A stretch of DNA of 33,130 bases from positions 1 through 33,130 of the forward strand of contig JAFXTB010000160.1 in the NCBI GenBank assembly GCA_017525225.1, read 5' to 3'. This stretch comes from Kiritimatiellia bacterium. Its GTDB lineage: Bacteria > Verrucomicrobiota > Kiritimatiellia > RFP12 > UBA1067. Of the stretch, positions 3,146 to 31,492 are shown in pieces. How positions within the stretch are numbered: position 1 is the stretch's first letter; each line of letters starts with the position of its first letter. The position numbers and the translations under genes are program-made. Under the pieces are notes generated by a model. It worked only from the letters and a program-made list of their open reading frames with translations. It was not told the DNA's origin and ran no database searches.

Positions 3146-5101
3146 ATGAACATGACACGAAAGACCGAAAAAAGGACTGCGCAACCTCGGATCAGGGGAA
3201 TGCTGGTGGCGATATTGGCGGCAAGCGGCGCGTTGGCGGCAGGTGGCGCGCTGGAGACGCCGAACATGCTGACGGGCATGGGCGACGTGAGGTTGAAGGG
3301 ACGCCTTGGCGAGTGCCTGGACACGATGATTGCGCGGCATGTCATCGGCACGGATGTCGATTACGTCACCGCGCCGTTCCTGGAGAAGACCGAGACGAAG
3401 CGGTGGTGGCAGACCGAGTTCTGGGGAAAGTGGATGCATGCGGCCATGCCGTATCTTGCCTACACGAAATCGGAAACGCTGAAGGCGTCCGTGGAGCGTG
3501 GCATCGACCGGATTCTTTCGTCGCAGGAAAAAAGCGGCTACATCGGCAACTATCCCGACGAACTGCGCTGCGGCGAGGGCTGGGACGTGTGGGGCATGAA
3601 GTACACGATGATGGGTCTGATGCATTATTATGACGGGGAACGGGGAACGGGGAACGGGGAACGGGCGCTTGCGGCGGCAAGGCGGCTGTGCGACTATGTG
3701 ATTGCGGAGCTGGGACCGAACGGAAGGCGCGGCCGTGAACTGTGGCAGACAGGCAACTGGTCCGGCTTCGCCAGCTCGTCCATCCTGGAACCCGTGATGT
3801 GGCTCCATCGGCGTACAGGCGATAAGAAGTACCTTGATTTTGCGACGTATCTCGTGAAGGGCATGACCGAGCCGGAGGGCGGGCCGCGTCTCGTGGACCT
3901 CGCGCTCAAGGGAATTTCGGTCGCTGATCGCAACGGCTACGGCAACAAGCCCGAAACGCATGGTGGATACGTGATGAAGCACAACCGCCGGAAGGCCTAC
4001 GAGATGATGAGCTGCTACCAGGGCCTGCTCGAATACTACGAGGTCACGGGACGCAAGGATCTTCTCGAAGCGGCGGTGAAGACGGGCGAGGACATCGCGA
4101 AGGAGGAGATCAACCTCGCCGGCGGCTGCGCCTCCTCCGAAATCTGGTTCCACGGCGCGCGCAAGCAGCATCTGCCGTATATCCATCTTCAGGAGACGTG
4201 CGTGACTACGACCTGGATGCGCTTCTGCGAGAAGCTGCTGGAGCTGACGGACGACCCGAAATGGGCGGACGAGCTTGAGAAGACCTTCTGCAACGTGTAT
4301 CTTGCGGCGATGAAGCCGGATGGCTCGGAGTTCGCGGCCTATACGCCGCTCTCGGGCAACCGCTACCATGGGCACCACCATTGCTACATGCATGCCAACT
4401 GCTGCTCGTCCAACGGTCCGCGCGGCTTTCTGTGCTACCTCAAGAAATTCTTCCGCGTGAAGGACGACGTGCCAGCGTTCAACTTCTATTCGTCCGCGCT
4501 GGTCGAGGGCCGTCTCTCGAATGGCAGGAAAGTGGCGTTCGACATGTATTCGCTCTATCCGCGCGAAAACATGGTGCGCATAGTCAGCCACACCGAGGGT
4601 GTGGGCGTTCTGCCGCTGAAGGTGCGCATCCCGGCGTGGAGCGCAAAGACCGTGGTGAAGGTAGCCGGCAAGACGCTGGAGGGCGCGAAGGCGGGAAGCT
4701 ACTTCACGATCCGGCGCGACTGGCAGCTGGGCGATGTGGTGGAAATCCTGTTCGACATGCCTGTGGTGGCGCATGTGTCGAACCACCATGTCGCCTTCAC
4801 GCGTGGGCCGGTGCTGCTTGCCCGCGACAGCCGCTTTGACGATGGCGACATGATGGAACCCTTCCGCCGGGGCTTGAAGGACGGGCAGGTCCTGCCGTCG
4901 TTCGCCGCCGTGCGTACGCCGGGCGACGAGATCTGGATGGCCTTCACCGCTACGCTGCCGATTGGTTCGCATACCGAAAATCCGGAGGCGCGCCTGCCCA
5001 CGACCGTGTCGTTCTGCGACTATGCGTCCGCAGGAAATGAATGGCGGCGCGACAACTACTACCGTACATGGTTCCCGATAGAGTACGGCCCGAACGAATG
5101 A
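3146..5101 (+). CDS. GH127-type (DUF1680) glycoside hydrolase, putative beta-L-arabinofuranosidase
   Basis: A 651-residue protein with an N-terminal export signal (basic stretch, then 'GMLVAILAASGALAAGG'). It has the (alpha/alpha)6 barrel pattern of DUF1680/GH127, including 'HGGYVMKHNRRKAYEMMSCY'. The family's zinc-cysteine site is visible: Glu350 and Cys352 in 'QETCVTTTW', and Cys419-Cys420 in 'NCCSSNGPRG'. In the characterised enzyme HypBA1 the equivalent Glu and three Cys bind zinc, and one Cys of the pair is the nucleophile. It probably trims arabinofuranoside-type residues from plant or bacterial glycans outside the cytoplasm; the exact substrate is inferred from the family. The start at 3146 was chosen because it has a GGAAAG Shine-Dalgarno and lies downstream of the -10 at 3058; an upstream in-frame ATG at 2975 lies before that promoter. 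A 7-nt repeat adds residues near 163-173. Confidence 0.85.
   Translation: MNMTRKTEKRTAQPRIRGMLVAILAASGALAAGGALETPNMLTGMGDVRLKGRLGECLDTMIARHVIGTDVDYVTAPFLEKTETKRWWQTEFWGKWMHAAMPYLAYTKSETLKASVERGIDRILSSQEKSGYIGNYPDELRCGEGWDVWGMKYTMMGLMHYYDGERGTGNGERALAAARRLCDYVIAELGPNGRRGRELWQTGNWSGFASSSILEPVMWLHRRTGDKKYLDFATYLVKGMTEPEGGPRLVDLALKGISVADRNGYGNKPETHGGYVMKHNRRKAYEMMSCYQGLLEYYEVTGRKDLLEAAVKTGEDIAKEEINLAGGCASSEIWFHGARKQHLPYIHLQETCVTTTWMRFCEKLLELTDDPKWADELEKTFCNVYLAAMKPDGSEFAAYTPLSGNRYHGHHHCYMHANCCSSNGPRGFLCYLKKFFRVKDDVPAFNFYSSALVEGRLSNGRKVAFDMYSLYPRENMVRIVSHTEGVGVLPLKVRIPAWSAKTVVKVAGKTLEGAKAGSYFTIRRDWQLGDVVEILFDMPVVAHVSNHHVAFTRGPVLLARDSRFDDGDMMEPFRRGLKDGQVLPSFAAVRTPGDEIWMAFTATLPIGSHTENPEARLPTTVSFCDYASAGNEWRRDNYYRTWFPIEYGPNE
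3634..3665 (+). repeat. Heptanucleotide microsatellite (CGGGGAA x4.6) inside the GH127 gene
   Basis: Four exact CGGGGAA units plus CGGG run head-to-tail within coding sequence and encode 'DGERGTGNGER'. Because 7 is not a multiple of 3, gain or loss of one unit would shift the frame. The present number adds 21 bases relative to one unit, which keeps the frame. Confidence 0.9.
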
Positions 5102-19151: not shown

Positions 19152-19512
19152 TTCTCTTGCCATTTTGGGGCGCATGCGATTTTCGTAGGGCATAAACCAC
19201 GGAAAACACGGAGACCCGTGTTCACGGGACACCGAAATCAGCACGAATGAGGCCTCTGGGTGTCTTGCTGGCAGGTGTCCATCTTCTATCTACCGATATT
19301 CGTAGGGGCAATCATCGGCTGAAATGCGTGAAACATCCATTCTACAGCCGTTTCCGTGCCGTACAAGGGTACGCTTCCGAGTGTTCCGTGGTTGAACCAA
19401 CCTAACAGAATCTGTCCGCCATGCCAGTGTTGTCAGATTGGCGGTAAGTTGTCGTATAATCGTGTAAGACCACGCCGTGGAATACGAGTAACACATGGAC
19501 GGGGAAACAAGA
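19152..19512 (+). other. Intergenic region with a short hairpin and a promoter
   Basis: No coding gene is evident. CCCGTG-TT-CACGGG (19215-19228) is a perfect small inverted repeat within a stretch of CACGGA-type repeats that looks like decayed dispersed sequence. The rest shows no clear feature apart from the promoter given separately. Confidence 0.5.
19430..19460 (+). promoter_or_regulatory. Probable promoter of the lipoprotein gene
   Basis: TTGTCA (19430-19435), 19-base spacer, TATAAT (19455-19460). The spacer is longer than optimal. The -35 lies in TTGTCAGATT, the same ten bases that open the four-copy element at 20257 and 31369. Confidence 0.5.
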
Positions 19513-20253
19513 ATGAAACCGATGAAAAAGATGATTGCCATGTCAATAGTGTGTCTGATGTTGGCGGGCTGTCCCGGTTGCCTTTCCTATTCGCACTACA
19601 GGTATTCCAAGCGGGCCGAGGCGGCGCGGACGCTACCTGTGGGAACGGTTGCGAGGCCTGGGCGAATCTATTTCGCGAACTTCCCTGAAAATAGGCTGGC
19701 GGTGGACATCATTTGCGGATGGCATCACAATGTTGGCCATGCGTCATTGGTGACACGCGACAAAATGGGACTGATCAAGCAATATGACTATGGCTGGCTT
19801 CTGGGACATGAAGAAGGCTGGCGGCCAGAATACGCGATAGGATATGTGGACAAGGACCTAAGCTATGGGACGGTGAGGCGTAAGGTATTTCCTGCCGAGC
19901 AGTCTGCCAGGGCGACGAATGATATGGAAATTGCACGAATGGTGCTTGATGGCATGGGGATCGATGAAGATGGTACGCCTCTTTATGGCAATAAGATTGA
20001 GATCTGGGCGAAGGATGTCGATGACATCGGCATTGCCGAACGCTACATGGAACATTTCGCCTACGATGAGAATCGCGGGTCGATGCTGTGGCGATGCTGG
20101 CAGATCGGCGGTTACCGTTGCGGCAATATCACGCGGCAGGCCTTCGATGCGGCTCGCGGTGAAGGGCATTTCCTTGATCTGCTCTGGGGTGGATTTCCCG
20201 GTGCCGACGCGCCCAGCATCGGAACCGAGAAAACGGTATATGTAAAGGAATGA
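19513..20253 (+). CDS. Lipoprotein, possibly a permuted NlpC/P60-like (LRAT-type) hydrolase
   Basis: A 246-residue protein with a type II signal: a Lys/Met-rich start, a hydrophobic run and the lipobox LAGC, so it should be lipid-anchored. Downstream 'WHHNVGHASLVTRD' and, later, 'GGYRCGNITRQAFDAA' give a His-then-Cys order like that of circularly permuted papain-fold enzymes (LRAT / DUF830 group), where His comes first and the Cys lies in a late helix. That assignment is a guess from two motifs. ATG 19513 has GGGGAA upstream; ATG 19495 adds six residues with a weaker site. The first copy of the four-copy intergenic element begins four bases after its stop. Confidence 0.62.
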   Translation: MKPMKKMIAMSIVCLMLAGCPGCLSYSHYRYSKRAEAARTLPVGTVARPGRIYFANFPENRLAVDIICGWHHNVGHASLVTRDKMGLIKQYDYGWLLGHEEGWRPEYAIGYVDKDLSYGTVRRKVFPAEQSARATNDMEIARMVLDGMGIDEDGTPLYGNKIEIWAKDVDDIGIAERYMEHFAYDENRGSMLWRCWQIGGYRCGNITRQAFDAARGEGHFLDLLWGGFPGADAPSIGTEKTVYVKE

Positions 20254-20256
20254 TAT

Positions 20257-20358
20257 TTGTCAGATTTCGGCCTCTCCAACTCCTGCCGTATATCATCGTA
20301 CCATTAGGCATATTCCGGCTGAGAGAGTCCGGGCAGGTCTGCGGGCGGAAATTTTCGC
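20257..20358 (+). repeat. Four-copy intergenic element, copy 1
   Basis: Copy 1 has core 20289-20316 (TATATCATCGTACCATTAGG followed by CATATTCC) and extends at both ends. It shares TTGTCAGATTT at the left and GGTCTGCGGGC plus ATTTTCGC at the right with copy 4. It lies between the lipoprotein stop and kinase 1. Confidence 0.88.
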
Positions 20359-20371
20359 TTTTATTTTCCGC

Positions 20372-20400
20372 TTTCAAGAAAGCGTCTCGTTTGGTAATAT
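20372..20400 (+). promoter_or_regulatory. Possible promoter of the kinase 1-sigma operon
   Basis: TTTCAA (20372-20377), 17 bases, TAATAT (20395-20400) with TGG before it. The -35 is weak; it sits just after intergenic copy 1. Confidence 0.4.
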
Positions 20401-20440
20401 AGTGACGCAACCGTTGAACGTAGGACGCTGGGAAACAAAA

Positions 20441-23059
20441 ATGCAGCAGATTGCTGAATATAAGCTTGAGTGCGAGATAGGCCGCGGCGCATACGGCACG
20501 GTATACCTTGCCGTCGGGCAGGACGGCGAACGCGTGGCGGTGAAGATCTGTTGCCGCGACGCGGTCGGCGACGAGCGTTACCAGCGCGAGCTGCGCGGAG
20601 CGAAGCTCTATAGCGCGATTCCGCCGCAGAATGGGCTTGTCCGCATGAGGGAACTCGCGGAGACGGACTGGGGCTTCTACACGGTGATGGATCTCGCGGA
20701 AGACGAATTCGGCCGGAAGATTTCCGGAGATGCCTCCTATAGGCCCAAGACCCTGGCCAGCGTCATCGCCGGTGAGAAGGCGTTGCCGCTCGACGAATGC
20801 GTAAAGCTCGGCATAGCGCTTGCGAAAGGACTCGCAACGCTTCAGCGCCATCACCTGCTGCATCGCGACATCAAGCCCGGGAATGTGATTTATGTCGCGG
20901 GATGTCCCGTTCTCTCCGATCCGGGGCTCGTCGTCGAGGAATCCGAGGCGGCGTCGAAAGTCGGAACGCCGCCCTACGCTCCCCCAGAGGGCTTCACCGG
21001 AACCGCCAGCGACATCTTCAGCCTCGGCCTCACACTCAAGGCGGCTAGTTTCGGTCGGCAGATCGAAGACCTCGACAAAGGTCCTGCGCTTGAGGCTGAC
21101 ACCGGCGCGAAGTTGTTTCCCGCATGGTGGCGCATCCTCAACAAGGCAACCGATCCTACTCCGTCCCGTCGCTACCAGTCCGCAAAGGCATTGGTAAAAG
21201 ACCTTGAAAGACTTCGTTGGAGAATGTCGTGGACGTTGCTTAGGCGTTCATGGCTGTTCTACACTGTGGTGGGGATCCTTCTTTCGTGTGCTGTCGCATA
21301 TATGTATGTGGTATTTCGCAAAACGAATGGGATTGAGGCCGAGATCAAGCCGCTGAAGGAGTTCAAGAACGGCATGGAAGAGCAGATTGAACGCTCGAAG
21401 CGCGAAGCGATTGAGAAGGTCGCAAAAGCAAAGGAAGGCCTTGATGGTTTCACGTCGCACTTGAACGAAATGGTGGAGGAGCGCAAGAGGAATGCCGAGA
21501 GGATTAAACGGGATTCCTTTTGGGTTTCTTCACATGCTTTCAATGCATACACCGATGGCATCTCCGATAATGCGAGACTAGAGAAAAAGATAGCGTGCGG
21601 CATTGCTGAAATCAAGGCAATCAACAAAGCGAACTCAGAGCAGCTCCAGGCATCTTTAAACCAGATCACCAACATTGCGGCAAAAGAAGAAGCGTTAGAC
21701 CGGAAAATCGACTCGTTGCACAAGCAGGCCGAAGAGAAGCGGAGAAAAGATCTCGATGACAAGGAAGAGTATCTTCAAGCAAAAATACTCAACGAGAATA
21801 GAGTCGAATTGCATAAGTCATTGCAAAATACCGTCGCCGATTTGAACACCGCCGAGACGAACATGCTTGAGAGAATCAATCGGGATTGGTTCTGGGATTT
21901 GCATAACAGCGGTACGTGCAGACTTGATTCTGAATCCATCATAGATTGCATAAAACGCTCCATTGCCGTAAAGGAGGCGAGGATATATTTCGATTATGGT
22001 CCTGACCCTGACCGGAAAAAATCGCTTGTAAAATGGTACAACGAGCACTTTGAAAACTTTGTCAAACACGAGGAGATCCACGCATTGGCGCGACAGAAGT
22101 TTGCCCATCTGATGAAACTGGCTGATGAAAAGACCCAAGATGGCCTTGACGACTCGGCAGAACTTCTCGAGCTGCGTTGGTGTTTCTTCAGAGATAATTT
22201 CTATTACAATCACCTTATAAACACAACGCATCTCGACTGGCTGTTGAAGACCAGCTTCTCGGATCGAGTGCAGTTTGATTATGAGTTTTATGATGCCAGA
22301 AACTTCTGTCTCAGGCTGGAATCCTATATGGATTTGTTTAGACGCGAGATAACCACAATTGCCGAGGAGGACAAGGAACTCGGTGGGAAACTTCGGTCAG
22401 ATTTCGACAAACTTGGTAAACTCCTAGCAAAAGAATCCTCATGTCAAAAAGACATTGACGTTTTGCATGAAAAGGCCAGCAAAAAGAAGCAAAATGGCCT
22501 TGATGACATGGAAGAGTTTCTGCAAGCGCAGAAAATCGCTGAAGAGGTAAAAACATTCCATAAAAAAGAACTAGAGCCACTTGCCAGCAAGCTATATTGC
22601 CGCATGCGCGATTATAAGCACAAGAAATCAAAGTGGAGCGATCTGTATGGATACCGGCATTATAGTCTTGATGTGGAATTGGCAAGGCAAGGTATAACCG
22701 AAGTATCCAAACTTAGCAAAGAGATTGCGTCCATGTTGCAGACGGAATTGGATAAGCTTATCAAAGGCAATACGAGGGCGGCGCCGCTGCAACGTGAAAT
22801 TGACCTACTGCGCAAAAGAGCCAAGGGGAAACTGCGCAATGGACAAGACGATGAGGAGGAATGTCGCAAAGCAAAAGAGATTTACGAGAAGGAATTGAGA
22901 CTCTATAACTATGAGATAAGGAATCAGGTGGAACTTGACATCTTGGATTCATTGGTAAGCGATGTGTGGCGCAGGTCGGTGTCGCCGGATAGATGGGCGG
23001 ATAAGAGCCGAAATGGGCTATGGCGCATTGAGCAGAGAAAAGAGGGAGAAGGAAAATGA
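20441..23059 (+). CDS. Transmembrane Ser/Thr protein kinase with tandem-repeat ectodomain (kinase 1)
   Basis: A 872-residue Hanks-type kinase. The glycine loop is 'GRGAYG' (14-19), the ATP lysine Lys35, the helix-C Glu probably Glu50, the catalytic loop 'HRDIKPGN' (141-148), and the metal motif is DPG (160-162) rather than DFG. 'PPE' replaces APE, and helix-F Asp191 is present. A transmembrane helix lies near 270-292. The remaining ~580 residues, presumably outside the membrane, are helical and carry four related segments near 423, 549, 672 and 787 ('IDxLHxxA...GLDDxEE' pattern), spaced about 115-125 residues apart. ATG 20441 is chosen because kinase 2 starts at the same 'MQQIAE' with a similar leader. 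The gene overlaps the sigma-factor ATG by four bases. The ectodomain is lower in GC than the kinase domain. Confidence 0.9.
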   Translation: MQQIAEYKLECEIGRGAYGTVYLAVGQDGERVAVKICCRDAVGDERYQRELRGAKLYSAIPPQNGLVRMRELAETDWGFYTVMDLAEDEFGRKISGDASYRPKTLASVIAGEKALPLDECVKLGIALAKGLATLQRHHLLHRDIKPGNVIYVAGCPVLSDPGLVVEESEAASKVGTPPYAPPEGFTGTASDIFSLGLTLKAASFGRQIEDLDKGPALEADTGAKLFPAWWRILNKATDPTPSRRYQSAKALVKDLERLRWRMSWTLLRRSWLFYTVVGILLSCAVAYMYVVFRKTNGIEAEIKPLKEFKNGMEEQIERSKREAIEKVAKAKEGLDGFTSHLNEMVEERKRNAERIKRDSFWVSSHAFNAYTDGISDNARLEKKIACGIAEIKAINKANSEQLQASLNQITNIAAKEEALDRKIDSLHKQAEEKRRKDLDDKEEYLQAKILNENRVELHKSLQNTVADLNTAETNMLERINRDWFWDLHNSGTCRLDSESIIDCIKRSIAVKEARIYFDYGPDPDRKKSLVKWYNEHFENFVKHEEIHALARQKFAHLMKLADEKTQDGLDDSAELLELRWCFFRDNFYYNHLINTTHLDWLLKTSFSDRVQFDYEFYDARNFCLRLESYMDLFRREITTIAEEDKELGGKLRSDFDKLGKLLAKESSCQKDIDVLHEKASKKKQNGLDDMEEFLQAQKIAEEVKTFHKKELEPLASKLYCRMRDYKHKKSKWSDLYGYRHYSLDVELARQGITEVSKLSKEIASMLQTELDKLIKGNTRAAPLQREIDLLRKRAKGKLRNGQDDEEECRKAKEIYEKELRLYNYEIRNQVELDILDSLVSDVWRRSVSPDRWADKSRNGLWRIEQRKEGEGK

Positions 23060-23685
23060 CATACCGACACTTCAACAACGAAACGACGCGATCCAGCGTG
23101 CTGAGGGCTGTCGCGAACACGGAGAACGAGGCGGCATGGCAGCGGCTGTTCGACCTCTATGCCGGATTCGTCTTCTCCATCGCACGCAGCAAGGGTCTTA
23201 AGCCAGAGGATGCCGACGACATCGTGCAGGTCGTATTCATGGATCTCGCGCGGAATCTCCCGACATTCCAGTACGACCGCGCGAAGGGCAGGTTCAGGTC
23301 GTATCTCACGGGGCTGGTGCATTGGCGCGTCATGGACAGGCTCAAGGCGGGGAAGCGCGACGCGGAGCTCAAGGAGTCGTTCTTGGAGGAGGCCAAGGCG
23401 TCCGCCACCGCCGATGACAACGACTTTGCAGAACGCGAATGGCAGGCGGCGGCTATGGAAGAGGCGTTGCGCCGGATGAAACCGGATGTTCGGCCCGAGC
23501 ATTACGCGGCGTTCGTCGCGAGCGCGGTGGAGGGACAGGATACCGAGGCCGTGATGAAGCTCTACGGTCTTTCCCGCGACAACCTGTACCAGATTCGCGC
23601 GCGCCTCACGGCGAAGCTGCGCGAGACGACGGCGGCGGTCATCGCCGAGATGGATTCTCCCGATGCGCCTGGTCCTCGGCCTTGA
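23056..23685 (+). CDS. ECF-type RNA polymerase sigma factor
   Basis: A 209-residue sigma-70 family protein. Region 2 is visible as 'LFDLYAGFVFSIARSKGL' and 'EDADDIVQVVFMDLARNL', with 'RFRSYLTGLVHWRVMDRLKAGKR' forming the -10 recognition helix. Region 4 ends in a helix-turn-helix, 'AVMKLYGLSRDNLYQIRARLTAKLRE'. There is no sigma-3 domain, which defines the ECF class. Its ATG overlaps the kinase stop (ATGA) and has GGAGAAGGAAA upstream, so the two are translationally coupled. Kinase-partnered ECFs are known (for example Vibrio EcfP with PknT), where phosphorylation activates the sigma factor. The 3' end overlaps the convergent ATP-grasp gene by 47 bases. Confidence 0.9.
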   Translation: MTYRHFNNETTRSSVLRAVANTENEAAWQRLFDLYAGFVFSIARSKGLKPEDADDIVQVVFMDLARNLPTFQYDRAKGRFRSYLTGLVHWRVMDRLKAGKRDAELKESFLEEAKASATADDNDFAEREWQAAAMEEALRRMKPDVRPEHYAAFVASAVEGQDTEAVMKLYGLSRDNLYQIRARLTAKLRETTAAVIAEMDSPDAPGPRP

Positions 23686-24574
23686 TCGCATCGGCGACCA
23701 TTGAAACGAGCCCGTGTTCGTTCTTCTCGTCTAACCACGCCCATTGGCCGTTGGGATTCAACTCAAGGAACCACAGTTCGCCGTCCTTGCGGATGAAGTC
23801 GAAACGTCCGAACCTGTAGCCGGTCTCATCCATGAAGCCCCTGATGGCGCGTTCGTCTTCGGGCGAGAGTTCGCAGCACGGCCACGAAATCGGATTCACG
23901 AAAAGCGCCTTGCGTGAGTCTTCGCCGCCGAACGAATCGCGCGGCGCGTTTGCCGCGTATGTTTTGCCGTCGATGTATACGACAGTCACCTCCTCCTCCC
24001 CCGCAATCCTCTCCTGGACGAACCACGGATAGGAAAGGTCGAGGGCGGACGGGACGACCTCCTTCACGAAGAATACCTTGCCTTTTCCAATAGGGGTTTG
24101 CGTCAGTGCCTTGACGACCCATCTTCCACGTTTGAGTTCTTCTGGTAGTTCGCCGTGGAAAATATGCCATGGCGCAACGCGAAAATGCCGTTTGGCGACG
24201 AGTAGTTGGCGTAGCTTGCCGTACTTGTTGTTCTGGCTGCGCACCAGCGCGGTCAACCCGCGGCTTTGGCATTCGCGGAAGAAATCGTTGAAAAGTTCGT
24301 CGGTTTCCTCTCTCCGCCAATTCTCGACGCACCCAAACTTTGGAACGTCAATCAGATCGAAATACATGGGCTTACGAAGATAGAACGACGTTAGTGTCTT
24401 GTCGGTAATCTCCTTCCCGGAAACCTTGTCAGCGACGCGAAACCCATTGGCGTGGAAATCCCACGCAAAGTATTCTGGTTTGTCTATGTTGAAGCGCAGG
24501 ACATCGTTTGGGTCTAGCTCTTGCATTACGATGTCCGTTGTTTTATCTTGGCTGCAAGTGGAAATGAAAATCAT
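23639..24574 (-). CDS. MvdD/graspetide-type ATP-grasp peptide ligase
   Basis: A 311-residue ATP-grasp ligase of the RiPP (microviridin MvdC/MvdD and grasp-with-spasm) class. The N-terminus 'MIFISTCSQDKTTDIVMQEL' and the later 'SFYLRKP' have the pre-ATP-grasp pattern of these maturases. 'NKYGKLRQLLVAKRHFRVAPW' and 'WFVQERIAGEEEVTVVYIDG' follow. The metal-binding signature 'RFDFIRKDGELWFLELNPNG' continues into 'QWAWLDE', which I regard as diagnostic for this group. Such enzymes use ATP to join Asp/Glu side chains of a precursor to Ser/Thr (ester) or Lys (amide) side chains. GAGGAAT precedes the ATG by seven bases. It lies directly downstream of a 47-codon precursor candidate and an ABC exporter on the same strand. 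Confidence 0.88.
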   Translation of the reverse strand: MIFISTCSQDKTTDIVMQELDPNDVLRFNIDKPEYFAWDFHANGFRVADKVSGKEITDKTLTSFYLRKPMYFDLIDVPKFGCVENWRREETDELFNDFFRECQSRGLTALVRSQNNKYGKLRQLLVAKRHFRVAPWHIFHGELPEELKRGRWVVKALTQTPIGKGKVFFVKEVVPSALDLSYPWFVQERIAGEEEVTVVYIDGKTYAANAPRDSFGGEDSRKALFVNPISWPCCELSPEDERAIRGFMDETGYRFGRFDFIRKDGELWFLELNPNGQWAWLDEKNEHGLVSMVADAIKAEDQAHRENPSRR

Positions 24575-24604
24575 GGGCTATTCCTCGTGATGGAAAATAT
24601 GTGA

Positions 24605-24632
24605 CATGGGGCTGGCGTTGGCCAGCCCCATG
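24605..24632 (-). terminator. Strong intergenic hairpin between precursor and ligase genes
   Basis: A perfect 12-bp stem (CATGGGGCTGGC with its complement) and a 4-base loop lie 19 bases after the precursor stop and 30 bases before the ligase start. No T-run follows on the minus strand, so it is more likely a partial attenuator or mRNA-stabilising 3' structure than a full terminator. Confidence 0.6.
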
Positions 24633-24651
24633 CCTTGTTTGACCTTTAGTC

Positions 24652-24795
24652 TCAATCGCTTGAGCGTTGATCATCAGGGACAAAGCCGGATCCCGCTGGT
24701 CCGAGGCAGTATGTTGCCATGGTGGACCAGTTGACGCTTCCCTCGCCAACAGGGCTGAGTCTTGCGACGTCGGTCGCGATTTCATTTGGTGTCAT
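24652..24795 (-). CDS. Putative graspetide precursor peptide (47 aa)
   Basis: A 47-residue peptide between the ABC exporter and the ATP-grasp ligase. The start has an AAGGAAAC ribosome-binding site at ideal distance within a clean A-rich leader. The N-terminal part (MTPNEIATDVARLSPVGEG) is helical and could serve as leader. The C-terminal part is rich in hydroxyl residues (Ser24, Thr25, Thr28, Ser36) and ends in Asp41, Asp42 and Asp47, the side-chain partners that graspetide ligases join. Cys30 is also present. The canonical microviridin PFFARFL leader motif is absent. An in-frame ATG further upstream lies inside the exporter gene and is less likely. Size, position and residue bias support the call; modification is inferred. 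Confidence 0.72.
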   Translation of the reverse strand: MTPNEIATDVARLSPVGEGSVNWSTMATYCLGPAGSGFVPDDQRSSD

Positions 24796-24817
24796 TTTTT
24801 GTTTCCTTTTTTTGTTT

Positions 24818-24850
24818 TTGGTTAACCAATGCAGCGGACACCCGTCCGCT
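24818..24850 (-). promoter_or_regulatory. Two inverted repeats upstream of the precursor
   Basis: TTGGTTAACCAA (24818-24829) is a perfect 12-bp palindrome. AGCGGAC-ACCC-GTCCGCT (24833-24850) is a 7-bp stem-loop overlapping the exporter stop. They lie 22-55 bases before the precursor ATG and could be an operator or an mRNA processing site. No T-run follows. Confidence 0.45.
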
Positions 24851-26522
24851 ACAAGATCGTATACGAGGGTTGTTCTGGAATCTGACAAAAAATCTTTTCG
24901 TCGCAGAGGTCTATGAGCGCCGGGTCGTGGCTGACGACAAGGACGATGCGCCCGAGCGCGAGACGGCGGAGCAGTTTCCCGAATGTCTCACGTGCGTCCG
25001 CATCGAGATGGTTGGTCACTTCATCCAGGACAAGAATGTCCGGCTTGCGCACGAGTGCGCGCGCGATGGCGAGGCGTTGCATTTCGCCTCCCGAAAGAGA
25101 CTGCCCATTGAGTCCGACTCGCGTGTCCAGCCCGTTGGGCAGCCTTTCGACTACTTCGCCGAGTCCGCTGAGCATCACCGCCTCTTTTATGCATTCCTCT
25201 GTAAATGCCGGATCGCGCAGTGTGATGTTGTCGCGCACGGTGCCTGAAACGAGGAGACTATCCTGGAAAACGGCACCAATGCTTCTTCTGAATGCGTATG
25301 CGTCAAGCGTCTTCAGTTGCTGTCCGTTTACGAGAATTTCGCCGGACTGTGGTTCTAGGGCTGCTGTGGCAAGCTTGAGAAGCGTAGTCTTGCCCGTGCC
25401 GTTGTCCCCTACAAGCGCGACAACCCTGCCGACACGGAAGATGGCCGAGAAATCCTTGATGACAGGCCTTGCGTCAGAACCCGGATAGGCGAATGTCACG
25501 TTGCGGAATTCGATACTTTCGATGGAATCCAGGCGACGGCCCCGCAATATTGGCGGCTCGCGATTGAGTATTTCACCGAGCGAGTCGATGCCCTCGCGGA
25601 GCGCGGCGGTCTCGGGAAGAAGCGAGACGATTCCCTGCACTGACTGCATCGCCGTAAGGAAGAGCATCTGATACACGACCACGTCGCCTACGGGAATTAA
25701 TCCTTTGGTGACGAACATACCGGCGAGGCCGAGTACGGCGACTTCGCCGGCAACGAGGATTGAATTGAGGATGGCTCCGAATGCCACGGTCAGGCGGTCC
25801 ATCGCGCAGTTTCCGTCCTTGAGGGCGGCAAGCGACTTGCGCGGTGAATCGGCGAATCGGTGTCCGGCCGCGAGTATCTGCAGAAAAGGCAACGAGTGGA
25901 AGAAGTCGAACAGCACGGCGAAGGCCCCGTCGCTTCTCTTTCGTACGGCGTGGGATGTTGTGGCGAAGTGGCGTGAGAATGGAAGAAAGAGGACTATCGA
26001 GAACGGAATAAACGCCATGAACGCAAATCCGAGCGCGGGAGAACGCGAATACAATGCGAAGCCAGCGGCGAACATCGTGACGATGGCGGTGAGAAGGTGC
26101 GGGTAGAGTCCGGTAACGAACCCGCCGACCGCATACGTATCGCGTGTGAGTTTTGCGACGAATGTACCCTCGGCGAGAGGTGATAGCTCTGGCGGGGGAA
26201 GGTCCATGATGGCGCAAATGGTCTTTTCTTGCAGCTTCAGTTCGATGCTGCGCGCCCGCGAAAGGATGAACCGCTGGAGGCAGGGCGTCATGATCGCCCG
26301 GATGAACAGCAACACACAGAGCGTGACAAACGGCGCGACTGGCGACATCCTGCCGACGAGCGAGTCGATGAATCGCCCCGTGGCAAAAGGAACGGCGATT
26401 CCGGCGACGGTCAGCGCGATCAGGAGTGGAGAATATGCAAACACAATCGCCGGGGACGACAGTATGGTAGAAGCAAGGAAACTTATCCTGCCGAAGTTCG
26501 ACTTTTTCTTGTCAGTATCCAT
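24849..26522 (-). CDS. ABC exporter (membrane domain fused to ATPase), likely RiPP exporter
   Basis: A 557-residue half-transporter. The first ~330 residues contain hydrophobic helices ('VFAYSPLLIALTVAGIAVPF') of the ABC-exporter membrane type. The ATPase domain begins near residue 337 ('IEFRNVTFAYPGSD') with Walker A 'GDNGTGKTTLL', Q-loop 'GAVFQDSLL', signature 'LSGGEMQRLAIARAL', Walker B 'ILVLDEVTNHLD' and H-loop 'VVSHDP'. No C39 peptidase domain precedes the membrane part, so it would not itself cleave a leader. ATG 26522 was chosen because the protein begins like other exporters there; the open frame continues upstream across an intergenic repeat and the promoter of the divergent gene, which is implausible. 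It is the first gene of the precursor/ligase operon. Confidence 0.88.
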   Translation of the reverse strand: MDTDKKKSNFGRISFLASTILSSPAIVFAYSPLLIALTVAGIAVPFATGRFIDSLVGRMSPVAPFVTLCVLLFIRAIMTPCLQRFILSRARSIELKLQEKTICAIMDLPPPELSPLAEGTFVAKLTRDTYAVGGFVTGLYPHLLTAIVTMFAAGFALYSRSPALGFAFMAFIPFSIVLFLPFSRHFATTSHAVRKRSDGAFAVLFDFFHSLPFLQILAAGHRFADSPRKSLAALKDGNCAMDRLTVAFGAILNSILVAGEVAVLGLAGMFVTKGLIPVGDVVVYQMLFLTAMQSVQGIVSLLPETAALREGIDSLGEILNREPPILRGRRLDSIESIEFRNVTFAYPGSDARPVIKDFSAIFRVGRVVALVGDNGTGKTTLLKLATAALEPQSGEILVNGQQLKTLDAYAFRRSIGAVFQDSLLVSGTVRDNITLRDPAFTEECIKEAVMLSGLGEVVERLPNGLDTRVGLNGQSLSGGEMQRLAIARALVRKPDILVLDEVTNHLDADARETFGKLLRRLALGRIVLVVSHDPALIDLCDEKIFCQIPEQPSYTIL

Positions 26523-26612
26523 TCTTGCATAACATACGATGCCGTCACAGAAATCTGACATTGACATCTTCGATAAAGTAGCAAAACATCCGATGTTGGT
26601 GGTGGTCTGGTT

Positions 26613-28205: not shown

Positions 28206-28240
28206 GCCGTATGTTATCGTGCCATTAGGCAGATTCCGGC
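28206..28240 (+). repeat. Four-copy intergenic element, copy 2
   Basis: Copy 2 has core 28210-28237, 28 bases identical to copy 3. It starts 16 bases after the AAA ATPase stop and precedes kinase 2. The right-hand part diverges quickly. Confidence 0.88.
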
Positions 28241-28324: not shown

Positions 28325-29689
28325 ATGCAACAGATTGCTGAATGTAAGCTTGAATGTGAGATAGGCCGCGGCGCATACGGCAAGGTATACCTTGCCGTCA
28401 TGCCGGACGGCGAACGCGTGGCGGTGAAGATCTGCCAGCGCGAGGACATCGGTGACGAGCGTTACCAGCGCGAGCTGCGCGGCGCGAAGCTCTACCGGTT
28501 GATTCCGCCGCAGGAGGGGCTTGTCCGCATGAGGAACCTCGTCGAGAAGGACTGGGGTTTCTACACGATCATGGATCTTGCTGACGACGAGTTCGGCGGT
28601 TCTCCTGGCTCTCCGGAAGCCTACCGCCCCAAGACGCTTGCAAGCGTCATCAAAGGCGAGAAGGCGCTGCCGCTGAAGGAATGCGTCAAGCTCGCCATTG
28701 CGCTTGCAAAGGGACTTGCCGCGCTTCAGCGTCACCATCTCCTGCACCGCGACATAAAGCCGGGGAACGTGCTGTACGTCAAAGGCAAGCCCGTGCTTTC
28801 AGATCCCGGCCTTGTCGTCGAGGAGTCCGCATCGGTCTCTACCGTCGGCACTCCGGAATATATTCCGCCTGAAAGGAAGTTCACGGCCGCGGCAAGCCAC
28901 ATATACAGCCTCGGCCTCACACTCAAGGCGGCGAGCTTCGGCCGGCAGGTCGAAGACCTCGACAAGGGGCCTGCGATGGAGGCCGACACGGGCGAAGCGT
29001 GCTTCCCCGCATGGTGGCGCATCCTCAACAAGGCGGCAGACCCCGTTCCGTCGCAGCGCTACCAGTCCGCCAAGGCGCTTCTGAAAGACGTCGAGATGCT
29101 CCGGCTCAGGATGGTGGCGTCGTCGGTCTGTCGTTCATGGATGCTTTATGCGGCGATGGCACTTCTTCTGCCGTTGGTTGGGGTATACATATATAGGTTT
29201 TCCCGCGAAAGGGACAGACTCACGTCCGCACTGGAGACTGCTTCCCGCGAACTTGACGCGGCTTCCCGCGAAAGGAAGCGGCTGGAACCAGAGATTAAAC
29301 GGGTGAAAAAGTTTGAGGACGTCAGGAAACGTCTGGACGACATGTCGGCGAAGGACCCGTTGGCCTGGTCGTGGTTCAAGGGATCGTATTTCTGCCGCAC
29401 GGATGAATCGTACATGCAAAAGCTGAAAAGGGCGGAGGAGAAGGATCCGGCGATTGCTGCGAAGATGCGTGGCATTATCGAAACGCTGCAGAAGATCGAC
29501 AAGAAGGGTGAAGAGAACAACCGGCGGATAAAGGCACTGCAAGAAGAAGCCGCGACGGGACAGGGCGCTGCCGAGAAGTACAATCAGGCCGAAATGCTCT
29601 CTCGGGCGAACGCCAAGCTTGTCCAGGCCTGGCTGTCGCATGTGGAGCAGTTCACGTTGCTGGAGGATGAAGTCAAGGCGAAGGAGTGA
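28325..29689 (+). CDS. Transmembrane Ser/Thr protein kinase (kinase 2, paralogue of kinase 1)
   Basis: A 454-residue kinase whose first ~290 residues closely match kinase 1, at both protein and DNA level. Lys35, Glu50, 'HRDIKPGN' (141-148) and DPG (160-162) are retained. At the helix-F position, however, the Asp (Asp191 in kinase 1) is His192 ('SHIYSLG'); this Asp normally anchors the catalytic loop, so activity may be reduced. A membrane helix lies near 272-293. The outer part is a ~160-residue coiled-coil-rich region containing only one copy of the kinase 1 repeat pattern ('RRIKALQEEA' region). No sigma factor follows. The start has GGGACAAC upstream and matches kinase 1. Confidence 0.9.
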   Translation: MQQIAECKLECEIGRGAYGKVYLAVMPDGERVAVKICQREDIGDERYQRELRGAKLYRLIPPQEGLVRMRNLVEKDWGFYTIMDLADDEFGGSPGSPEAYRPKTLASVIKGEKALPLKECVKLAIALAKGLAALQRHHLLHRDIKPGNVLYVKGKPVLSDPGLVVEESASVSTVGTPEYIPPERKFTAAASHIYSLGLTLKAASFGRQVEDLDKGPAMEADTGEACFPAWWRILNKAADPVPSQRYQSAKALLKDVEMLRLRMVASSVCRSWMLYAAMALLLPLVGVYIYRFSRERDRLTSALETASRELDAASRERKRLEPEIKRVKKFEDVRKRLDDMSAKDPLAWSWFKGSYFCRTDESYMQKLKRAEEKDPAIAAKMRGIIETLQKIDKKGEENNRRIKALQEEAATGQGAAEKYNQAEMLSRANAKLVQAWLSHVEQFTLLEDEVKAKE

Positions 29690-29710: not shown

Positions 29711-29755
29711 CGCTATGTTATCGTGCCATTAGGCAGATTCCAGCTGAGAGGGCCG
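29711..29755 (+). repeat. Four-copy intergenic element, copy 3
   Basis: Copy 3 core 29714-29741 is identical to copy 2 over 28 bases, followed by AGCTGAGAGGGCC, close to copy 4's GGCTGAGAGAGCCC. It begins 24 bases after the kinase 2 stop. Confidence 0.88.
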
Positions 29756-29760
29756 GACAA

Positions 29761-29825
29761 TCCCGTTCGGGAAAATCAGCTTCAGATTTGCTCCGTTTTC
29801 GTACTGTTTATCCCGTTCGGGATAA
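29761..29825 (+). promoter_or_regulatory. hipB: Two palindromic operators upstream of hipBA
   Basis: TTATCCCGTTCGGGATAA (29808-29825) has 8-bp arms around a TT centre, and TCCCGTTCGGGA (29761-29772) repeats its core 50 bases upstream, nearly five helical turns. The E. coli HipB operator is TATCC-N8-GGATA; here the form is TATCC-N6-GGATA. The second ends eight bases before the -35, consistent with autorepression. Confidence 0.72.
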
Positions 29826-29832
29826 TTTCTGG

Positions 29833-29861
29833 TTGAATCGTAATTCAGAATGTGATAAAAT
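29833..29861 (+). promoter_or_regulatory. Promoter of the hipBA operon
   Basis: TTGAAT (29833-29838), 17 bases, TAAAAT (29856-29861). It places transcription start near 29868, which rules out the GTG at 29852 as hipB start. Confidence 0.65.
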
Positions 29862-29896
29862 ACGGTCCAAAAATCGGTCTAATCAGGATAATGCTT

Positions 29897-30127
29897 ATGA
29901 TTCAGGTAGACAGCATGGTGGAAATCGCCGATTCTGTGCGTAAGGCACGTAAGGAGCAAGGAGTGTCTCAGACGGTTCTTGCTCAGCTTTCCAATGTTGG
30001 TCTTCGTTTTCTTTGTGAGGTTGAACATGGAAAAAGCACGGTGAGGTTCGACAAATTGCTGTCCGTCCTGACTTCGCTTGGAATTACGCTGCGGCTAGAA
30101 ATGCCATCGGAGTCTTCAAATGCATGA
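29897..30127 (+). CDS. hipB: HipB-like antitoxin (XRE helix-turn-helix)
   Basis: A 76-residue DNA-binding antitoxin. The XRE fold is seen as 'ADSVRKARKEQGVSQTVLAQLSNVGLRFLCEVEHGK', with the recognition helix around 'NVGLRFLCEVE', and 'TVRFDKLLSVLTSLGITLRL' forming the dimerising end. HipB binds and neutralises HipA and represses the operon. ATG 29897 has AGGA eight bases upstream; ATG 29915 (AGGT) is possible, and the longer GTG start would lie in the promoter. It overlaps hipA by eight bases. Confidence 0.87.
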   Translation: MIQVDSMVEIADSVRKARKEQGVSQTVLAQLSNVGLRFLCEVEHGKSTVRFDKLLSVLTSLGITLRLEMPSESSNA

Positions 30128-31361
30128 ATCGCTGAAAGTCTATCTGAAGAACAGCTTCGTAGGGTGGTTCTCCCATGAGACGGTCGGCGATGAGTATTCG
30201 TTTGAGTATGACAAGGACTATCTTGCGCACCCGGTCGAGGGCGCGCTTTCCTTTGCGTTGCCATTGACAGACGGGAAGTTCGATTCCACGCATGCCTTCA
30301 ACTTCTTCTCGAACCTGCTGCCTCCTCGTGTCGTCCGGCAACGGCTTGGCGCAAGTCTCCATTTGTCGCAGCATAACGTGTTTGGATTCCTCAAGGCCAT
30401 CGGCGGGGACTGCGCTGGTGCCGTGTCGCTCTATCCCTCATGGGCTAAACCGACACCACAGGATGTAGAGCATGTACGAGAGCTTTCCGAGGAAGAGGCC
30501 GTACGGATATTGAAATCACTCAAGCGCCGGCCGTTGTATGCAGCCGGAGAGGAGGGATACCGTTATTCCGGCGCTGGCGCACAGGACAAGCTGATTGCCA
30601 GGGTTGTGGACGGCAAGGTCATTTTGCCGCTCTACGGAACTCCTTCGACGCATATCATAAAGCCGCCGGCGGATGGATTTGAAGATTCGGTTATCAATGA
30701 ATGCTTTTGCCAGTGCCTTGCATCGAGAGTCGGACTTCCCGCATCGCGTGCTGAAATCATAATGCTTGGCGGCGAGGGGTACTATGTTTCGGAACGCTAT
30801 GATCGCGAAGTTGTCTCGGGCAAGCCAATTCGTCTGCATCAGGAGGACTTCTGTCAGTTGCTTTCCGTCGATCCTGAGATGAAGTACGAAGCGGATGGCG
30901 GTCCGTCGATAGCGGACTGCATCTCCGTCATGCGCCGCATGAGGATGACCGCGACGAGTCAGCTCGCGTTTATCGATTCAATAGTGTTCAACTACATTAT
31001 CGGTAACGCCGACGCGCACGCGAAGAACTTGTCGGTCGTTTACCACGGCAAAAGCGCCGTGCTGGCACCGCTCTACGATCTGGTGTCCACCGTAGTCTAT
31101 CCTGAACTGTCAAGGGAGATGGCGATGGGTATTGGCGGCGAGATGCGGTTTGTGGCGATAACCCGTGCAAACTTCTCCAGGATGGCCAGCGGTTGCGGCA
31201 TTTCGCCGAAACTCGTGCTGTCGCGCCTTGATGCTCTTTGTGGCCGCGTAACCACTGCGGCTGAACGCCTAGCCGAGGAATTCAACGCTTCCTGGCCGAG
31301 CGGTATGTACGGAAAGATCATAGAGACGATAACGTCACACGTCGCGCAAGTGGCGTCCTGA
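30120..31361 (+). CDS. hipA: HipA-family serine/threonine kinase toxin
   Basis: A 413-residue full-length HipA. The N-terminal domain (couple_hipA; 'HPVEGALSFALPLTDGKF', 'FNFFSNLLPP') precedes the PI3K-like kinase. The ATP loop is 'YSGAGAQDKLIARV' and 'STHIIKPP' holds the ATP-binding Lys. The catalytic loop is 'GNADAHAKN' (295-303) and 'LAPLYDLVST' holds the metal-binding Asp. E. coli HipA phosphorylates glutamyl-tRNA synthetase and induces growth arrest; HipA homologues may target other synthetases. The exact target here is unknown. It overlaps hipB, an operon arrangement typical of toxin-antitoxin modules. Confidence 0.93.
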   Translation: MHESLKVYLKNSFVGWFSHETVGDEYSFEYDKDYLAHPVEGALSFALPLTDGKFDSTHAFNFFSNLLPPRVVRQRLGASLHLSQHNVFGFLKAIGGDCAGAVSLYPSWAKPTPQDVEHVRELSEEEAVRILKSLKRRPLYAAGEEGYRYSGAGAQDKLIARVVDGKVILPLYGTPSTHIIKPPADGFEDSVINECFCQCLASRVGLPASRAEIIMLGGEGYYVSERYDREVVSGKPIRLHQEDFCQLLSVDPEMKYEADGGPSIADCISVMRRMRMTATSQLAFIDSIVFNYIIGNADAHAKNLSVVYHGKSAVLAPLYDLVSTVVYPELSREMAMGIGGEMRFVAITRANFSRMASGCGISPKLVLSRLDALCGRVTTAAERLAEEFNASWPSGMYGKIIETITSHVAQVAS

Positions 31362-31368
31362 CGTAATC

Positions 31369-31464
31369 TTGTCAGATTTATCGCCCCCCTGCCGTATATT
31401 ATCGTGCCATTAGGCAGATTCCGGCTGAGAGAGCCCGGACAGGTCTGCGGGCAGAGATTTTCGC
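31369..31464 (+). repeat. Four-copy intergenic element, copy 4
   Basis: The longest match to copy 1: TTGTCAGATTT at the left, core 31395-31422, then GGCTGAGAGAGCCCGGACAG and GTCTGCGGGC, ending in ATTTTCGC. It starts eight bases after the hipA stop. TGCC-ATTA-GGCA inside the core could form a tiny hairpin. Confidence 0.88.
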
Positions 31465-31492
31465 GAGATTTCCGACCCGCCGGCCTGATTTT

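Follow-up and report, generated by a model that had tools for sequence, protein, structure and literature searches.

In a 33,130-nucleotide stretch from the genome of a Kiritimatiellia bacterium, a gut organism of an uncultured group (contig JAFXTB010000160.1, contig 58 of a 4.2-Mb assembly; hereafter the window), we found three adjoining genes that, in our judgement, probably make and export a graspetide and are transcribed by a neighbouring extracytoplasmic function (ECF) sigma factor under kinase control. Graspetides are mainly known as protease inhibitors and from few phyla. Little is known of how they are controlled; here a promoter signature, a sigma factor, a kinase and an RNA candidate accompany the cassette, and a small set of genes would be enough to test trigger, regulon and product separately. 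That the cassette encodes a graspetide is well supported by sequence comparison, and its product is very probably a peptide closed into rings by ester links. An earlier note, written from the DNA letters, had described three same-strand genes with the content of a cluster for a ribosomally synthesized and post-translationally modified peptide (RiPP) at 23639–26522. All three were found on the minus strand. The range is right for the cassette and omits the regulatory genes that travel with it, so that the sigma factor, kinase, promoter and RNA context was missed. The cassette genes are:

23639..24574, minus strand: graspetide-synthetase-like ATP-grasp ligase, 311 amino acids (homology, family models, predicted fold)
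24652..24795, minus strand: putative graspetide precursor, 47 amino acids, with leader MTPNEIATDVARL and core TMATYCLGPAGSGFVPDD (comparison with relatives)
24849..26522, minus strand: ATP-binding cassette (ABC) exporter, 557 amino acids, membrane domain plus ATPase (ABC_membrane and ABC_tran domains)

The ligase, which is single-copy in its genome, carries the proposed signature FLELNPNGQWAWLDE at residues 269–283, nearly invariant among 20 homologues. The GRFDFI motif and, in the LELNPNGQW stretch, residues E271 and N273 do not vary across the family, and AMdnB and MdnB have the same residues at the aligned positions. A comparison with graspetide ligase models, suggested in the earlier note, returned RiPP ATP-grasp matches in NCBIfam (TIGR04187, 3e-22; MvdC, 3e-15; MvdD, 1e-6; grasp-with-spasm, 7e-6), though below the curated cut-offs. 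The remaining NCBIfam match was weak and unrelated (0.14), no RimK model was among the matches, and a Pfam search gave no ATP-grasp match. Searching the PDB with phmmer retrieved AMdnB, MdnB, PruB, CdnC and MdnC. We predicted the ligase fold with AlphaFold2 from 20 homologues (predicted local distance difference test (pLDDT) 72, predicted template modelling score (pTM) 0.73). The top 31 chains in Foldseek were all graspetide synthetases, with RimK afterwards, and in VIA-align graspetide synthetases scored Z 21.0 to 18.1 against 17.5 for the best RimK. Structure alone separates the ligase from RimK modestly, and the weight is carried by the sequence evidence, on which a RimK-like identity was rejected; the ligase does not cluster with RimK-like enzymes, an outcome that the earlier note had named as fatal to its proposal.

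Compared with microviridin (MdnA/MdnB/MdnC), plesiocin (PsnA/PsnB), CdnC and PruB, the ligase shares the fold and related sequence families, at about 17–22% identity to the solved members. As in known graspetides, a short precursor adjoins the ligase, the core holds Thr and Asp, and an exporter is present; the window differs in its exporter, which has no peptidase, and in its sigma factor and kinase neighbours. Membership of the microviridin group was ruled out: the PFFARFL leader of microviridins is replaced by the short leader MTPN[DE]IATDI and a core T-x(1-2)-T-x-[STC]...DD, the genome has one ligase only, and the MvdC and MvdD matches lie below cut-off. The best-matching sequence model, TIGR04187 (GRASP_SAV_5884), was rejected as a subfamily assignment at 79 bits against a cut-off of 350.

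The precursor gene has counterparts in relatives. Upstream sequence was available for 18 of 20 collection loci, and every one of the 18 shows a small gene at this place; with L079 and L086 this gives an equivalent open reading frame upstream of the ligase in 20 relatives, where the absence of such a gene would have spoken against the earlier proposal. Together with the window, these form a set of 21 precursors, with fewer distinct cores than that, since those of L006 and L022 are identical and those of L013 and L017 are one residue apart. A leader of about 13 residues, MTPN[DE]IATDI..L, is conserved, and the core varies. Leader codons showed a ratio of nonsynonymous to synonymous differences (pN/pS) of 0.47, against 0.72 and 1.04 in the shifted frames, values that come from non-independent pairs and are indicative only. 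The equivalent reading frames in 20 relatives and the leader pN/pS argue that the precursor is more than a chance reading frame.

All 21 cores fit T-x(1-2)-T-x-[STC]-x(3-12)-DD, a pattern derived from these same sequences, and the distance from the second Thr to the first Asp ranges from 7 to 13 residues. The earlier note had the peptide ending in Ser/Thr plus Asp; Thr and Asp are indeed there, with the Thr residues forming a pair and an Asp-Asp standing close to the C terminus. Having two Thr and two Asp, the core may form two ester rings. The ligase could instead form another bond, an amide or imide, or add an amino acid as RimK-like enzymes do, and the product would then not be an omega-ester graspetide. 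Its fold is common to RimK, LysX and similar ligases, and it falls under all curated cut-offs. Yet both the sequence models and the top structural matches point to RiPP macrocyclases, Thr and Asp-Asp are retained in the core, just 1 of the 21 precursors (L086) has a Lys in the core stretch, and no isoaspartyl methyltransferase is present among the annotated genes around the ligase, all of which makes a different bond very unlikely. In L008, the precursor (3827–3961) has an in-frame TGA within the core, beyond which the frame and the DD motif resume; judging by its sequence, it is probably inactive. More distant ligases from other parts of the phylum also have a small upstream gene: in L136–L139 (36–42% identical) it encodes another type of precursor, marked by a conserved YNW motif and a terminal DDW, and no sigma factor or kinase match was found near these ligases; in L140 and L141 (25–29% identical) it has an Asp-rich end.

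The exporter gene precedes the precursor in most relatives. As the earlier note had it, the exporter has no peptidase domain: ABC_membrane and ABC_tran were found, with no C39 peptidase match. The leader would accordingly have to be removed by another protease. Two structured segments lie within the operon:

24575..24651, minus strand: strong hairpin in the gap between precursor and ligase (-35.4 kcal/mol, z -6.6)
24796..24850, minus strand: 5' leader of the precursor, with the hairpin AGCGGAC-GGGT-GTCCGCT and the TTGGTTAACCAA palindrome (z -2.6)

The hairpin between precursor and ligase occurs in 19 of 19 compared loci, its stem retained despite differing sequences, and fits a precursor transcript in excess of the ligase transcript. 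Most relatives conserve the hairpin of the precursor's 5' leader and also the TTGGTTAACCAA palindrome, which stands directly before the precursor start; L023 and L086 carry other short palindromes at that point.

Regulatory genes lie on the other strand:

20438..23059, plus strand: membrane Ser/Thr kinase with a long extracytoplasmic part, its stop overlapping the sigma gene start (domain annotation, synteny)
23056..23685, plus strand: ECF sigma factor, its 3' end overlapping the ligase 3' end, convergent (TIGR02937, Pfam region 2)
28325..29689, plus strand: second membrane Ser/Thr kinase (domain annotation)

The sigma factor scored 61.9 bits against TIGR02937 (cut-off 42.9) and also matched Pfam region 2. 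In 14 of 20 relatives (L007–L013, L015–L017, L019, L023–L025), its gene is directly convergent with the ligase gene, an order that L023 keeps at 48% ligase and 43% sigma identity. Three more have it within about 9 kb of the ligase, at a few kilobases in L018 and L021 and about 8 kb in L020; L014, on a short contig, has kinase genes only, and in L086 the ligase, sigma gene and kinase follow one another on the same strand. The kinases beside the sigma gene are 67–79% identical within the family in the kinase domain, and the part beyond the membrane segment runs from under 50 to 580 residues and is divergent in sequence. Outside this group, a sigma–kinase pair was seen near a graspetide ligase in G179 and G406, from other families of the phylum. 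The distant ligases L140 and L141, from other families of the phylum, have a kinase and an ECF sigma gene within about 6 kb, and L140 an exporter homologue as well; as a gauge of the chance proximity of sigma–kinase pairs, 4 and 6 homologues were counted in the respective genomes.

A two-box promoter, TGTCAGAT-N14/15-CGTA, lies upstream of the precursor, the exporter and other genes. The sites in the window are:

24862..24887, minus strand: ECF-type promoter before the precursor (TGTCAGAT-N14-CGTA), inside the 3' end of the exporter gene (motif)
26535..26560, minus strand: same promoter before the ABC exporter (motif)
19431..19456, plus strand: same promoter before the putative lipoprotein gene 19495–20253 (motif)
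31370..31396, plus strand: same promoter before the full-length copy of a structured RNA element (motif)

Allowing N13–16, the pattern has five sites in the whole 4.2-Mb genome, four of them within the window, and none in the reversed control. All 21 loci have it upstream of the precursor, in degenerate form in L086; of the 17 loci that cover the exporter start, 14 have it upstream of the exporter as well. We ruled out that the precursor promoter is a by-product of exporter coding, as L023, L079 and L086 retain it in the absence of an overlapping exporter gene. The spacers are unrelated among sites and the spacing of the boxes is near-fixed; we liken this spacing to what we take to be SigW-like spacing, for which no usable published consensus was found. 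Other genes behind the motif encode Sel1-repeat-like proteins and a secreted trypsin-like protease (L011); in the window, a gene farther downstream of the motif encodes a BspA-like protein. These names come from reading the translations rather than from a family search. The putative lipoprotein had no NCBIfam match and a sub-threshold Pfam match only.

The motif follows the sigma factor across genomes. A stricter form ending in CGTATA was found in 23 of 115 genomes, with one match in the reversed control. Of the 14 genomes with a close sigma homologue (E below 1e-90), 12 have it, against 11 of the 101 others (Fisher 1.5e-8; the calculation took 116 genomes instead of 115, to no material effect). 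With distant sigma homologues included, the figures were 17 of 24 and 6 of 91 genomes. Within genomes that have the sigma gene, 23 of 32 motif sites lie within 13 kb of it, a cut-off set after seeing the data, and some sites are on contigs other than that of the sigma gene.

Downstream of many motif sites, at a constant spacing, lies an element of three hairpins in which GAGAGAG is invariant; we consider it a candidate small RNA. The genome has four copies, two of them partial, all in the window:

31398..31492, plus strand: putative small RNA of about 95 nucleotides, three hairpins, the last terminator-like with a T run (structure, covariance model)
20292..20383, plus strand: second copy, upstream of the kinase gene, with a decayed terminator; its promoter boxes are about 6 bases wider apart (model)
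29717..29828, plus strand: partial, decayed copy (model)
28214..28240, plus strand: short remnant before the second kinase (similarity)

No Rfam covariance model matched the element at E below 1. In an alignment of 13 sequences, 8 of 22 predicted pairs differ at both positions in one or more sequences, and the covariation energy term is small (-0.6); support for the RNA structure is moderate. Our own model of the element found it in 18 of 115 relatives: in 12 of 14 with a close sigma homologue and 6 of 101 others. The training copies had been selected for having the promoter; copies outside the training set mostly have it too (L107–L110, L112–L115), and L111, L117 and L121 lack a matching one. 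In L008, L010, L020 and L021, the element and the exporter promoter face away from each other. If the element were instead a repeat or a transposable fragment with a fortuitous promoter, multiple and partial copies in one window and a small covariation term would likewise be seen. Against this stand the three hairpins, in which 8 pairs differ at both positions, the terminator-like final hairpin with its T run, the constant spacing between promoter and element start, seen also in copies outside model building, and the total of only four copies in the genome. We regard the repeat explanation as somewhat unlikely, and retain the small-RNA candidate.

The cassette could be real but tied to the sigma factor, kinase and RNA by nothing more than co-residence in a mobile or variable genomic island, with independent transcription. 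Consistent with this, the ligase is patchily distributed, in 5 of 60 genomes including its own (relatives 77–88% identical, spread over two families), the window contains tandem or decayed RNA element copies and duplicated kinases, and sigma–kinase pairs exist without the cassette. Co-residence does not account for the same two-box motif, at near-fixed spacing and with unrelated spacers, before the exporter, the precursor, the RNA element and other genes, nor for its concentration in genomes with the sigma factor, including sites on contigs other than that of the sigma gene. We therefore consider co-residence unlikely and favour transcription of the cassette by the sigma factor.

Several observations lower our confidence in a graspetide cassette controlled in this way. 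The ligase lies below the curated cut-off of every NCBIfam RiPP ATP-grasp model, its predicted structure is of moderate quality, and RimK is just 0.6 Z under the lowest graspetide synthetase in VIA-align. L006 and L022 have no sigma gene in the stretch covered around the ligase. Sigma–kinase pairs occur with no ligase nearby in G033, G065, G091, G052 and G048, which indicates that the cassette is at most one target of the sigma factor. In L079, sigma identity is 42% and ligase identity 77%, a gap implying that the parts can move apart. The Fisher tests of promoter against sigma factor treat related genomes as independent and ignore gaps in metagenome-assembled genomes (MAGs), and the precedent for kinase control comes from another ECF group (PMC13147305).

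We propose that a signal from the envelope or outside would reach the membrane kinase, which would in turn activate the sigma factor; this activation is probable by analogy. The sigma factor would drive TGTCAG-N16/17-CGTA promoters before the exporter and the precursor–ligase pair, and would also drive the small RNA and a few proteins that are secreted or lie at the surface. On binding the short leader, the ligase would use ATP to activate the two C-terminal Asp side chains and link them through ester bonds to Thr (or Ser) in the core, closing rings prior to export. An envelope-signal regulon with the graspetide as one output is thus the likely arrangement. For the peptide itself, a role in protease inhibition is suggested by analogy with other graspetides (PMC13097080). 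A bolder version would have kinase–ECF loci of Verrucomicrobiota-type gut bacteria combine a dedicated promoter, a hypervariable graspetide and a new small RNA, with the graspetide serving as a signal that the locus itself makes and its kinase reads. The idea comes from the variable sensor parts of the kinases and the varied core under a constant leader, and we think it quite unlikely.

The closest known arrangement is ECF43 (PknT/EcfP, PknS/EcfK; PMC13147305), where a membrane Ser/Thr kinase is likewise encoded beside an ECF sigma factor. In ECF43, the acidic residues of region 2.2 are replaced by a phospho-acceptor Thr motif (PMC13147305). Most members lack these residues, and 15.8% retain negative charge at one position (PMC13147305). 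Region 2.2 of the sigma factor in the window reads DADDIVQ with the acidic residues kept, so that this factor may fall outside ECF43 and the switch may differ. The outputs in the window, a graspetide and a small RNA, differ too. In its chemistry, the cassette adds a new family to a known kind; its control arrangement appears new. Two surveys give the regulators and transporters of graspetide clusters (PMC8939145, PMC13097080). Neither a sigma factor nor a Ser/Thr kinase is among the neighbours in Table 1 of PMC8939145, and the main text of PMC13097080 does not contain sigma, kinase, Verrucomicrob- or Kiritimatiell-; the loci described here may nevertheless already be among the supplementary data of these surveys. 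We found no open-access paper joining graspetide and rumen, nothing on graspetides in titles and abstracts on Kiritimatiellae and RiPPs, no graspetide reported from this group in the part covered of the literature naming graspetide and Verrucomicrob-, and no description of kinase-linked ECF control of graspetides in the literature checked.

The earlier note had guessed at a genome of the Planctomycetes–Verrucomicrobia–Chlamydiae type, and the relatives bear this out: their records are titled as Kiritimatiellae, Lentisphaerae or Verrucomicrobia MAGs, or as uncultured bacteria, several of them from the ruminant gut. One is titled Selenomonadaceae, where a binning error is probable. Between the second kinase and the full-length RNA element, the window also holds a helix-turn-helix gene and a HipA gene (29852–31361), a toxin–antitoxin-like pair, and a HipA homologue also adjoins the kinase–sigma pair in L072.

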